A stretch of 64,000 nucleotides of DNA from Stigmatella aurantiaca (lineage in GTDB: Bacteria; Myxococcota; Myxococcia; Myxococcales; Myxococcaceae): the NCBI RefSeq assembly GCF_900109545.1, contig NZ_FOAP01000005.1, positions 124,001 through 188,000 on the forward strand, in the 5' to 3' direction. Below are positions 29,047 through 32,657 of the stretch, piece by piece (position 1 is the first letter of the stretch; each line of letters starts with the position of its first letter). A program made the translations under genes and the position numbers. The notes below the pieces were generated by a model. That model did not search any database and was not told the origin of the DNA. It saw only the letters and a program-made list of their open reading frames with translations.

Positions 29047-29604
29047 TTACTGCGAGGGGGGGTGCTTCTGGAGCTTGCGCTGGAGCGAGCGCCGGTGGAG
29101 CCCCAGCCGGCGCGCCGCCTCGGAGATGTTGCCCTCGCAGTCGGCCAGCACGCGCTGGATGTGCTCCCACTCGGCGCGGGCCAGGGAGGGGGCCTGGAAG
29201 GCCTCCGCCACCGGGGGGCTGGGCTCGCCCAGGCCCCGGGCCAGCGCCGCCAGCAGGTCATCCACGTCGGCGGGCTTGGGAATGTAGTTGAGCGCGCCCA
29301 GCCGCACCGCCTCCACGGCGGTGGCGATGCTGCCGTAGCCGGTGAGGACGATGATGCGCGTGGAGGCATCCAGCGCCCTCAGCTCGCGCACCAGCTCCAG
29401 CCCGCCCCGCCCCGGCATCCGCAGGTCCACCACCGCCAGCTCCGGGGACTCCTGCTGGGCCGCCGCGAGCCCCTCTTCCATGGAGCCCGCGGTGGCCACC
29501 TCGAAGCCGCGCTCGCGGAAGGCCCGCGCCAGGCGCTCGCGGAACACGCCGTCGTCATCCACCAGCAGCAGCGAAGGGGCATCGGAAGCGCGAGGAGAGG
29601 CCAT
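29047..29604 (-). CDS. regA: RegA/PrrA/ActR-type response regulator
   Basis: The 185-residue product is almost the exact length of RegA proteins. A receiver domain covers about 11-125 with the phospho-acceptor Asp60 (VVDLRMPG) and conserved Lys in IPKPAD. A Fis-type DNA-binding helix-turn-helix sits at the C-terminus (NISEAARRLGLHRRSLQRKL), as in RegA. RegA homologues control respiration, carbon and nitrogen fixation genes in response to redox state. The gene starts 14 bases after the sensor-kinase stop, so the pair is co-transcribed. Confidence 0.9.
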   Translation of the reverse strand: MASPRASDAPSLLLVDDDGVFRERLARAFRERGFEVATAGSMEEGLAAAQQESPELAVVDLRMPGRGGLELVRELRALDASTRIIVLTGYGSIATAVEAVRLGALNYIPKPADVDDLLAALARGLGEPSPPVAEAFQAPSLARAEWEHIQRVLADCEGNISEAARRLGLHRRSLQRKLQKHPPSQ

Positions 29605-29618
29605 GGGGACACCCGGCG

Positions 29619-30935
29619 TCAGGCGCCCGGTTCCAGCAGGCTCGCCCCGGACGGCCCGGAGGACAACGGGTCAAATTGTCGCAGGGCGCGCGCGGGCCAC
29701 GTCAGCGCCACCTGGGTGCCCTGGCCCGGCACCGAGCGGACCTCCAGCGTGCCCCCAAGCTGGTCCAGCAGGGCACGCGCCAGGAACAGCCCCAGGCCCA
29801 TGCCCTCGCCCTGCGGCTTCGTGGTGAAGAAGGGCTCGCCCGCGCGGGCCAGCACCCCGGCGGCCATGCCCGCGCCCGTGTCCTCCACGCGCAGCTGCCA
29901 GCCGGCCTCCTGGCGCAGGAGCACCACCTGCACGGGCGCGCCCTCGGGCGAGGCCTGGAGGGCGTTCTTCACCACCCCCCGGATGGCGTGCGTGAGGGCC
30001 CGGGCGGGCACGGACATCGGCTCGTCCGAGGGGCCCTGGAGGGCCACCCGCACCCGCTCGCGCCCCTTGAGCCCCTCCAGCACCCCGTCCAGCAGCATCC
30101 CGGGCGCCAGGGGCACGAAGGCCTCGCCGTGGCTCGCCCCCGCGTCGGCCGCCATCTGCACGAGGATGTCCCGGCAGCGCGACACCTGCTGGCGGATGAG
30201 CTGCGCGTCCTCGCGGCAGGCGGGGGGCAGCTCCCCGCGGCGCTCCAGCTCCCGGGCCACCACGGCGATGGTGGACAGGGGCGTGGACAGCTCGTGCGCG
30301 GCCCCGGCGGCCAGCGTGGCCAGGGCGGCCAGCTTCTCGTTGCGCGCCGTCACCGCGCGCGCTGCCTCCAGCTCCGCCTCGCGCTCGGCCAGCGCCCGGG
30401 TGACGCGCTGGACGAAGTAGACGATGACGGCCGCGGCCAGCCCGAAGGCGGCCCACATGCCCTCCAGGTGCAGGCGCACCGCGTCCATGTGGTGGTGCGC
30501 GGCGTGCGCGTCCGCGCCCGGCATCCACAGGTGGCGCACGAAGAGCGCGCCGAAACACCCCAGCCCCAGCGCCACCAGCGTCCACGTCCACCGGGCCCGG
30601 AGCACCACCGCCGCCAGGGCGATGTGCACCAGGTACAGCGTGCTGAAGGGGTTGAAGGGCCCACCGCTGAAGGCCAGCAGCACGGTGAGCAGCACCACGT
30701 CGAGCGCCATCACCCCCCACAGCAGCCACTCGTGCACGGCCCGGGGGCGCCGGCTCCACACGCCCAGCGCCGCGTTGCTCAGCACCGCCACGCCGATGGT
30801 GGTGAACAGCGGCACGAGCGGCAGCGGCATCTCCAGCACGAAGTGCGCGCCGAGGATGAGCACCGCCTGGGCCACCACCGCGCCCCAGCGCAGGCGCAGG
30901 AGCCACGAGAGGTTGATGGCGTGCGCGTCGCGCAC
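29619..30935 (-). CDS. regB: RegB/PrrB-type redox-sensing histidine kinase
   Basis: The product is 438 residues from GTG 30935. Six hydrophobic segments occupy about 10-175. Residues 91-97 read GGPFNPF, matching the quinone-binding heptapeptide GGxxNPF of RegB. The kinase core has phospho-acceptor His214 in HELSTPL, followed 40 residues later by Cys254 in SRCRDIL. This is the same His-to-Cys spacing as His225-Cys265 of Rhodobacter capsulatus RegB, where the cysteine is redox-active. An ATP-binding domain with GxGxG motifs (DTGAGMAAG, GEGMGLGLF) closes the protein. RegB relays electron-transport state to RegA. The gene lies one base after the zinc-ribbon gene stop. Confidence 0.92.
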   Translation of the reverse strand: MRDAHAINLSWLLRLRWGAVVAQAVLILGAHFVLEMPLPLVPLFTTIGVAVLSNAALGVWSRRPRAVHEWLLWGVMALDVVLLTVLLAFSGGPFNPFSTLYLVHIALAAVVLRARWTWTLVALGLGCFGALFVRHLWMPGADAHAAHHHMDAVRLHLEGMWAAFGLAAAVIVYFVQRVTRALAEREAELEAARAVTARNEKLAALATLAAGAAHELSTPLSTIAVVARELERRGELPPACREDAQLIRQQVSRCRDILVQMAADAGASHGEAFVPLAPGMLLDGVLEGLKGRERVRVALQGPSDEPMSVPARALTHAIRGVVKNALQASPEGAPVQVVLLRQEAGWQLRVEDTGAGMAAGVLARAGEPFFTTKPQGEGMGLGLFLARALLDQLGGTLEVRSVPGQGTQVALTWPARALRQFDPLSSGPSGASLLEPGA

Positions 30936-30936
30936 C

Positions 30937-31671
30937 TCACGGCCTCCCGAACATCAGCCGGAACTGCCGGAAGATGAGCAGCGCCGACACCAGCAGGAAC
31001 AGGAACAGGAGGATGGCCGCCACGAGCTGCGTCCTCGAGGACAGGCCGCCCTGCGCCTTGGGCGCGAACCCCACCGGCGAGGCCGAGGCCAGGCGCACCA
31101 CCTCGTCCCGCCCGCGCTGGGCGTACAAGTCCTCGGGGGCCTGGGCCAGGCGGATGCGGTACAGGCGCCCGGCCATGGCCAGCTCCCCGCGCCCCACCGC
31201 CAGGGACAAGAGCCGGTCGTGCGCGTCGCGGTCGTCCCACCGGCCCAGCACGGCCAGCCACGCGGCCTGCAGGGCCTCCGAGGGGCGCTGCTCCTCGGGG
31301 ATGAAGTTGGCGTAGACCAGGCCGCAGGAGGCACAGGACTCCGCCCCCTCCCGGCGCGCCGCGATGCACTTGGGGCAGAAGCCCGGGGGCACGGCGAAGG
31401 GGTCCTCCGAGCGCGCCACGGCGGCCGCCCCCCGCACCTGCTCGTCCGAGGGCCGCAGGGCCACCACCTTCAGCACCGGCACCGGGGTGAGCCGCTGCTG
31501 GAGCGGGGGCACGGGCTCCTGCGCCTGGGTGACCGCCCCCTGGAGCGCCTCCTCGGGCCGCGCGCGGCTCTCGTTGCCGCAGCGCGCGCACGTCATCACC
31601 AGCACCCCCAGCTCCACCCGGAAGGAGGCCGGCGGCGCGAGCCGCTCACACACATCACACAGGTACCTCAT
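30937..31671 (-). CDS. zinc-ribbon, single-TM protein in the redox operon
   Basis: The start at ATG 31671 overlaps the upstream protease stop by four bases and gives 244 residues. Two CxxC pairs open the protein (CDVC at 5-8, CARC near 30) and another two pairs lie near 100-120 (CPKC, CASC), both likely zinc ribbons. A helical region follows, then a C-terminal transmembrane helix at about 211-232 (LVAAILLFLFLLVSALLIF). No catalytic motif is visible. It is translated between an M50 protease and the RegB-like kinase, so it may couple them, but this is inferred from position. Confidence 0.8.
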   Translation of the reverse strand: MRYLCDVCERLAPPASFRVELGVLVMTCARCGNESRARPEEALQGAVTQAQEPVPPLQQRLTPVPVLKVVALRPSDEQVRGAAAVARSEDPFAVPPGFCPKCIAARREGAESCASCGLVYANFIPEEQRPSEALQAAWLAVLGRWDDRDAHDRLLSLAVGRGELAMAGRLYRIRLAQAPEDLYAQRGRDEVVRLASASPVGFAPKAQGGLSSRTQLVAAILLFLFLLVSALLIFRQFRLMFGRP

Positions 31672-32657
31672 GACAACACCTGCCGCAGGGGAATGGGCAT
31701 GGCACATCCGGCCAACGCCAGGAAACACAGCGCGCACAGCCACTGGCGCCCCCGGCTCAGCGGCAGCCCCGGCTCTATCACCTCCGGATGGCCGAAGCCC
31801 ACCAGCTTCACCGTCACCAGCAGCCACACGCCCCAGGAGGCCGAGGCGAAGAGCGTGAGCAGGAACAGCCCCAGCGCCACGGCGCGCCCCAGCCACTGCG
31901 CGCGCCGGCCCCACAGGGCGAAGGACAGGTGGCCCCCATCCAATTGCCCCACGGGCATCAGGTTCAACATGGTGACGAGCAGGCCGAACCAGCCGGCCAC
32001 CACCACCGGGTGCTCATAGAGCTGCTTGCCCGGGGGCAACGGCCCCACCGCCAACCAGCGCAACCCCTGCATCAGCAGGCTGTCGCCGAAGAGCACCTGC
32101 CAGACGGCCTCCGCGTCCAGCTCGGGCGGGGCGGGCGCGTGGGTGAGCTGCAGCATGACCCAGCCAAACAGCCGCTGCGCCAGCACCCACAGGGAGCCAT
32201 CCCCCAGCAGCCCTGCCTCCAGCGGGGGTGCATCCACGATGGGCGAGTGCGCCAGCCCCCAGAGCAGCACGGGCACCGCCACCGCCAGCCCCGCGAGCGG
32301 CCCCGCGGCGCCAATGTCCACCAGGGCATTGCGGTGCGGAATGCGCCCGCGGATGACGATGACGGCCCCCAGCGTTCCCACCAGGCTCAGCAGGGGCAGG
32401 GGGATGAAGTAGGGCAGCGACGTGTCCACGCCGTGGCGGCGCGCCAGCACGTAGTGGCCCATCTCGTGGGCCCCCAGGATGGCCAGCAGCGCCAGGGCGA
32501 AGGACAGCGAGCCGCCCACCCACCCGGGCAGGCCCAGCTCCTCGCCCTGGCCTCCCAGAAAAAAAGCAAATGAGACAAACGCCGAGGCCAGCGTCACCAC
32601 CAGCAGCAGGAGGTGAAACCAGGGCCGGGCGGTGGGGCGGACGAAAGCGGTCTCCAT
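31668..32657 (-). CDS. M50-family (site-2-type) intramembrane metalloprotease
   Basis: The 329-residue product has about seven hydrophobic segments. The catalytic zinc motif HEMGH (64-68) lies in the second, and the third zinc ligand is in NLMPVGQLDGGH near residue 240, the standard site-2 protease pair. Such enzymes cut transmembrane anchors of regulatory proteins or process membrane proteins. No PDZ domain is visible. The 3' end overlaps the zinc-ribbon gene by ATGA, so protease, zinc-ribbon protein, RegB and RegA homologues form one transcription unit. Confidence 0.92.
   Translation of the reverse strand: METAFVRPTARPWFHLLLLVVTLASAFVSFAFFLGGQGEELGLPGWVGGSLSFALALLAILGAHEMGHYVLARRHGVDTSLPYFIPLPLLSLVGTLGAVIVIRGRIPHRNALVDIGAAGPLAGLAVAVPVLLWGLAHSPIVDAPPLEAGLLGDGSLWVLAQRLFGWVMLQLTHAPAPPELDAEAVWQVLFGDSLLMQGLRWLAVGPLPPGKQLYEHPVVVAGWFGLLVTMLNLMPVGQLDGGHLSFALWGRRAQWLGRAVALGLFLLTLFASASWGVWLLVTVKLVGFGHPEVIEPGLPLSRGRQWLCALCFLALAGCAMPIPLRQVLS

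Follow-up and report, generated by a model that had tools for sequence, protein, structure and literature searches.

The locus described here lies in a 64,000-nucleotide stretch of DNA, called the window below. It encodes a membrane sensor histidine kinase resembling RegB and, 14 bases downstream, a response regulator resembling RegA (Table 1). The initial annotation had given the kinase ORF, its GGPFNPF heptapeptide at residues 91-97, and Cys254 at 40 residues after the phospho-acceptor His, all of which lie where it placed them, the His being residue 214; the partner gene was missed. The top NCBIfam match of the kinase is NF033792 (ActS/PrrB/RegB), which covers residues 4-418 with 273.3 bits and falls below the equivalog cut-off of 350 bits. 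Pfam recognizes HisKA and HATPase_c domains, and the protein has three cysteines (127, 240, and 254), the first of which lies in predicted helix 5 and is variable across the family. An AlphaFold2 model (mean pLDDT 90.0, pTM 0.71) places helices at residues 4-32, 40-61, 69-90, 96-111, 114-133, and 146-232, the last of which continues into the DHp helix after the five before it. The model thus suggests the RegB-type layout, in which six membrane-spanning helices precede the HisKA and HATPase domains, and the Arg-rich loop at residues 62-65 suggests that the turn at 91-97 faces the periplasm. Among the 50 of 560 Foldseek matches to the PDB that were listed, none is a solved relative of the membrane domain; these alignments span at most 285 columns, and their titles name cytoplasmic kinase parts or soluble kinases. 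A His-rich stretch, HLWMPGADAHAAHHH, occupies residues 135-149 between helices 5 and 6 and is a possible metal or proton site.

Table 1. Features of the kinase-regulator locus, in window coordinates
Feature	Position	Strand	Basis
M50-family peptidase, next upstream of the Cys-rich gene	31668..32657	-	PF02163, E 8e-20
Cys-rich protein, zinc-ribbon-like by eye, 244 aa, directly upstream of the kinase	30937..31671	-	ORF
Membrane-bound RegB-like sensor histidine kinase of 438 aa with a GTG start codon	29619..30935	-	ORF and NCBIfam match
GGPFNPF heptapeptide (residues 91-97) in the turn that joins predicted helices 3 and 4	30645..30665	-	pattern match G000:C5:154645-154665
His214, expected phospho-acceptor, H-box AAHELSTPL	30294..30296	-	HisKA match 205-260; H in 156/156 aligned kinases
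Cys254, RegB redox-box cysteine position (RCRDIL)	30174..30176	-	C in 151/156; predicted helix 238-270
RegA-like response regulator of 185 aa, with receiver Asp60 and a lone cysteine, Cys156, ahead of the Fis-type HTH	29047..29604	-	Response_reg and HTH_8 (Pfam), NF033791

For the regulator, NF033791 (ActR/PrrA/RegA) is the best of 111 NCBIfam families, with a score of 195.2 bits that does not reach the equivalog cut-off of 250 bits. The features of the RegA type are present, namely the receiver Asp60, an HTH_8 domain, and Cys156 ahead of the HTH. A PDB search returned the full-length response regulator 3rqi (E 2.6e-40) as well as entry 1umq ("photosynthetic apparatus regulatory protein"), which matches residues 121-183 (E 1.6e-11) and which we take to be the DNA-binding domain of PrrA. 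Cys156 (window 29137-29139), the sole cysteine of the protein, occupies the position of the RegA cysteine for which disulfide formation has been reported and is a possible third redox input. In Rhodobacter, that cysteine forms a disulfide with copper and oxygen, as described in a section of PMC9147068. Judged from the alignment, the residue is not family-wide: column 156 is Cys in 98 of 152 aligned regulators, including 59 of 69 from Myxococcota genomes and, among the contig rows, 15 of 23 from Myxococcota and 7 of 36 from Pseudomonadota.

The immediate neighbors of the pair encode the M50 peptidase, the Cys-rich protein, and a helicase. The M50 gene overlaps the Cys-rich gene by 4 bases, and a single base separates the latter from the kinase gene; the Cys-rich protein matches no Pfam family at E <= 0.01. 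Linkage to senC, given in part of PMC9147068 as a feature of Group 1 RegBA loci, is absent from these immediate neighbors, and no respiratory gene occurs among the flanking genes examined. Six of 15 hand-chosen wider loci, all from family f1, share the order M50, Cys-rich, kinase, regulator, with the match to the Cys-rich protein covering only part of its length in four of the six. In the other nine, four of which are also from f1, no more than the pair was found.

Of 179 Myxococcota genomes, 118 have a RegB-model match at E <= 1e-40, as do 107 of the 149 that are of good quality, and genus g18 carries two copies in each of the 27 genomes listed. The kinase reaches the NF033792 cut-off in none of the 179. 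By these counts, the presence of a RegB-like kinase in a myxobacterium, which had been singled out at first, is ordinary for the phylum. Conservation was assessed in an alignment of 156 kinases including the window's own (155 distinct), made up of 69 from Myxococcota genomes, 7 from plasmid records, and 80 from contig loci; duplicates (L033, L044) and paralogues (L002-L008) were left out. The model used to collect the 69 itself includes the tested features. The 80 come from a GTDB contig scan with one H-box pattern, in which the H-box was the sole criterion of entry but ranking was by comparison with the window protein; they are the top-ranked 80 among 564 confirmed relatives and include Acidobacteriota, Planctomycetota, Verrucomicrobiota, and Pseudomonadota records. 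The plasmid comparators (six alpha- and one gammaproteobacterial) were drawn from 1704 records matched.

With contig loci represented by these best 80 of 564, the exact GGxxNPF motif occurs in 150 of the 156 kinases, Cys at column 254 in 151, and a same-strand RegA-like regulator within 260 bp in 148. By phylum, the motif and Cys254 are found, respectively, in 89 and 88 of 92 Myxococcota, 41 and 42 of 43 Pseudomonadota (a count that takes in the doubtfully named records L087, L089, and L101), 5 and 5 of 5 Acidobacteriota, 10 and 11 of 11 Planctomycetota, 2 and 2 of 2 Verrucomicrobiota, and 3 and 3 of 3 unnamed rows; the one Planctomycetota row without the motif is missing that region. No regulator was found near four kinases, all from Planctomycetota, and in four further cases (L059, L068, L124, and L128) the pair is arranged otherwise or broken. 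Kinase and regulator distances correlate across 147 pairs with r of 0.89, a value inflated by shared ancestry, versus 0.10 or less in 500 permutations. L068 (1938-3218, minus strand) is a second RegB-like copy of genome G051, with GHDARVF as its heptapeptide, the Cys kept, and the regulator on the opposite strand. L059 (genome G092) has a kinase frame of ~322 aa, Gly in place of the redox Cys, and an overlapping regulator match, and is either a broken gene or an assembly error. The putative redox cysteine of the initial annotation is strongly conserved. The exact 40-residue His-Cys spacing is not, ranging from 38 to 49 in the aligned kinases, and was discarded as a signature. The suggestion that Cys240 adds to redox control also failed, since the residue is Ser or Gly in the congeners compared and any Cys in this loop occurs in 8 of the 156 rows, the window's own included (four Myxococcota, four Planctomycetota).

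Genes of quinone biosynthesis were searched in 34 genomes, comprising 26 Myxococcota and 8 others reached through the loci, with UbiG as the sole ubiquinone gene searched. UbiG exceeded its cut-off in three of the 34 (Bradyrhizobium, Nitrosomonas, and Massilia) and in none of the 26 Myxococcota or the five Acidobacteriota, Planctomycetota, and Verrucomicrobiota genomes; weak matches below the cut-off occur in all 34. MenD passed in 18 of the 34, all Myxococcota, among them the genome of the window (479 bits, without UbiG over the cut-off). MqnC passed in six, four of them Myxococcota. MenD or MqnC was thus found in 22 of the 26 Myxococcota genomes, and all three genes fell below cut-off in the remaining four (G012, G048, G167, and G175). 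Ubiquinone is apparently not made in Myxococcota. Part of PMC13386864 describes it as confined to Pseudomonadota and one class of Desulfobacterota, with two further genomes being likely annotation errors. Because none of the 26 Myxococcota genomes has UbiG over the cut-off and 22 have MenD or MqnC, the ligand, if the kinase site binds a quinone, is probably of the menaquinone type rather than ubiquinone. Polyhydroxylated menaquinone variants, the myxoquinones, are reported in a portion of PMC8955186 only from Cystobacterineae, where they possibly replace menaquinone.

The relationship to the studied RegB proteins was examined in a quick IQ-TREE phylogeny of 90 rows, with 32 of 87 inner branches starred and long-branch warnings for L039 and L082. 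The 85 RegB-like rows are separated from the five other kinases included from this genome (support 100, starred). A Pseudomonadota set of 22 rows (support 94, not starred) holds the annotated alphaproteobacterial L079 and L081. The window protein lies outside it, in a set of 60 rows (94) where L089 and three unnamed rows join Myxococcota, Acidobacteriota, Planctomycetota, and Verrucomicrobiota. Neither set includes three of the Myxococcota rows (L039, L052, and L053), so that the copies of the phylum do not form one clade in this tree. The window kinase thus appears to be related to the studied RegB and not nested in it. Together, its near full-length family match, the adjoining RegA-type regulator, the tree, and the conserved residues argue that the kinase was correctly called RegB-like. 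Recent acquisition of a RegBA pair by a myxobacterium from a proteobacterium would have nothing beyond resemblance in its favor, and we consider it highly improbable given the separation of the two sets, even with L089 inside the larger one, and the breadth of the kinase's occurrence in Myxococcota; recent transfer from Proteobacteria is not favored by the quick tree. L089, named Alphaproteobacteria bacterium, lies among Myxococcota in the kinase tree and represents a misnamed bin or a transfer. L101 and L087, named Comamonas sp. KCTC 72670, look myxobacterial, and the kinase core of L101 is identical to that of L024 (G114, f1).

The remaining alternatives concern what the two conserved features do, and they were weighed against other kinases of the same genome. 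The control comprised 27 other loci, 26 with a kinase match and 25 readable (L174 has no match, and L008 is misaligned). In a membrane-domain alignment of seven other kinases of the genome, Gly91 and Pro96 are present in all seven, Gly92 in five, and Ser at position 95 in six. All seven have a G(G/A)xx(N/S)P(F/Y/M) turn at the same place, and they and the window kinase seem to share one fold. One of them, L193, is PilS-type and alone passes the PF25323 cut-off; the other six have no match to that family at E <= 0.01. The heptapeptide therefore appears to be a specialized version of a turn common in membrane kinases and, because of this shared turn, is by itself no proof of quinone sensing. As evidence of quinone sensing it is weakened by the common turn and also because ubiquinone, the studied ligand, is apparently not made in Myxococcota. 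These observations would suit a RegB-lineage kinase in which GGxxNPF is a structural turn and the signal is something else, such as a periplasmic metal or proton sensed through the His-rich residues 135-149, or the state of the membrane, the quinone reading of the motif failing outside ubiquinone makers. His makes up 8.0% of columns 134-146, as compared to 2.4% of the whole protein, in the 69 Myxococcota rows. However, this enrichment is moderate, with any His in 39 of the 69 rows and three or more in one, and a purely structural turn does not easily account for Asn95 in 154 of 155 and Asp79 in 155 of 155 RegB-lineage rows bearing a letter there, versus one and two of the seven other kinases. 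We regard this alternative as unlikely. Slightly less probable still is that Cys254 owes its conservation to packing or catalysis within the DHp bundle, with no redox role. Two of the 25 other kinases (L180 and L186) do have Cys at this column, yet the family has it in 151 of 156, and the five family exceptions carry Ala (3), Gly (1), or Phe (1). In L184 and L191 a Cys lies nearby, a few columns away, and RC(K/R)xI cysteines also occur in unrelated kinases, e.g., L180. The exact heptapeptide is found in one of the seven kinases, L173 (GGPSNPF), which lacks Cys254. Motif and cysteine are more than chance features of the family because they occur in 150 and 151 of 156 kinases, as compared to 1/7 and 2/25 in the controls. 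As a DNA pattern, GGxxNPF has seven sites in the genome versus one for the reversed control; two of the seven lie in kinases and one in L174, which has no kinase match. By eye, no regulator is seen in the ORFs neighboring L173 (G000:C36:42275-43606).

These data allow us to propose a mechanism for the pair. The two proteins very probably work like RegB/RegA, with a redox input, His-Asp transfer, and a transcriptional output. That they form a combined quinone-pool and thiol redox switch with a menaquinone-type ligand is, in our view, likely. Counted in favor of this reading are the RegB and RegA families as best NCBIfam matches, the linked pair, the conserved residues, the tree, and MenD without UbiG; counted against it are the scores below cut-off, a turn that is not unique, RC(K/R)xI elsewhere, the lack of a flanking respiratory gene, and a Cys156 that is not family-wide. 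The membrane sensor would report the state of the quinone pool via the turn that connects helix 3 to helix 4. The ligand is proposed to be of the menaquinone type because the organism has genes for menaquinone-type and not ubiquinone-type quinones; it would be menaquinone or, if the organism belongs to Cystobacterineae, hydroxylated myxoquinones. Cys254 in the second DHp helix would act as a separate thiol switch whose oxidation lowers kinase activity, by analogy with Rhodobacter RegB, for which the mechanism outlined in part of PMC9147068 served as the model. His214 would phosphorylate Asp60 of the adjacent regulator, which would bind DNA through its Fis-type HTH and carries a cysteine of its own, Cys156.

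Existing descriptions of RegB/RegA make it a Pseudomonadota sensor that works through ubiquinone and a thiol, and its near-invariant residues are also present in phyla apparently without ubiquinone. This raises the question of whether GGxxNPF serves as a site for quinones in the first place; if it does, a second question is what determines which quinone it accepts and where its redox set point lies. Tentatively, the RegB site may be a general quinone-pool site that uses low-potential naphthoquinones across several phyla, with ubiquinone sensing in Pseudomonadota derived and a polyhydroxylated myxoquinone as the ligand in Cystobacterineae; we hold this broader idea to be possible but doubtful. 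Natural variants separate the two proposed inputs, with the motif decayed and the Cys kept in L068, and the Cys lost and the motif kept in L039, L042, and L043.

Among known systems, RegB has been described in alpha-, beta-, and gammaproteobacteria and in Acidithiobacillus (in parts of PMC8191878 and PMC5506826), which fits the initial statement that it has been studied mainly in alpha- and gammaproteobacteria once the beta class is added. A published account of RegB in Myxococcota was not found in a search confined in part to top-ranked papers, and a term search of the main text of a myxobacterial two-component survey (PMC4603909) gave no RegB, redox, or quinone. PilS-type L193 resembles the window kinase in having a turn, GGADSPF, at the same place, but it has Ser for Asn95 and, by eye, no Cys in the matching stretch. 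The window kinase itself matches PF25323 (6TM_PilS) weakly, at 21.6 bits, under the gathering cut-off of 27, and is not assigned to PilS. One close counterpart in plan is RegB/RegA of Rhodobacter capsulatus (PrrB/PrrA, ActS/ActR, RegS/RegR), whose kinase has six membrane helices, GGxxNPF, an H-box, and a redox-box Cys, and whose regulator has a Fis-type HTH preceded by one Cys, as set out in sections of PMC9147068 and PMC8191878; the heptapeptide is called a defining feature of RegB in the latter. In contrast to these systems, the window pair scores below the curated cut-offs, has no adjoining senC, and belongs to an organism that appears to make menaquinone-type quinones. Annotated ActS L079, which scores 602.3 bits against NF033792, is 28% identical to the window kinase, and the His-Cys spacing of 40 is shared by the window kinase, L079, and RegB-family L081. 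Pairs from the alphaproteobacteria Azospirillum, Sphingomonas, and Palleronia (L080, L083, and L085) have the same plan, GGxxNPF, and Cys, and L080 is also under the RegB cut-off (231 bits). Unlike the window pair, they group with Pseudomonadota and are linked to cyo genes; in each, cyoBCD, a SURF1-family gene, the kinase, and the regulator follow one another in that order, the last two annotated as an ATP-binding protein and a response regulator.
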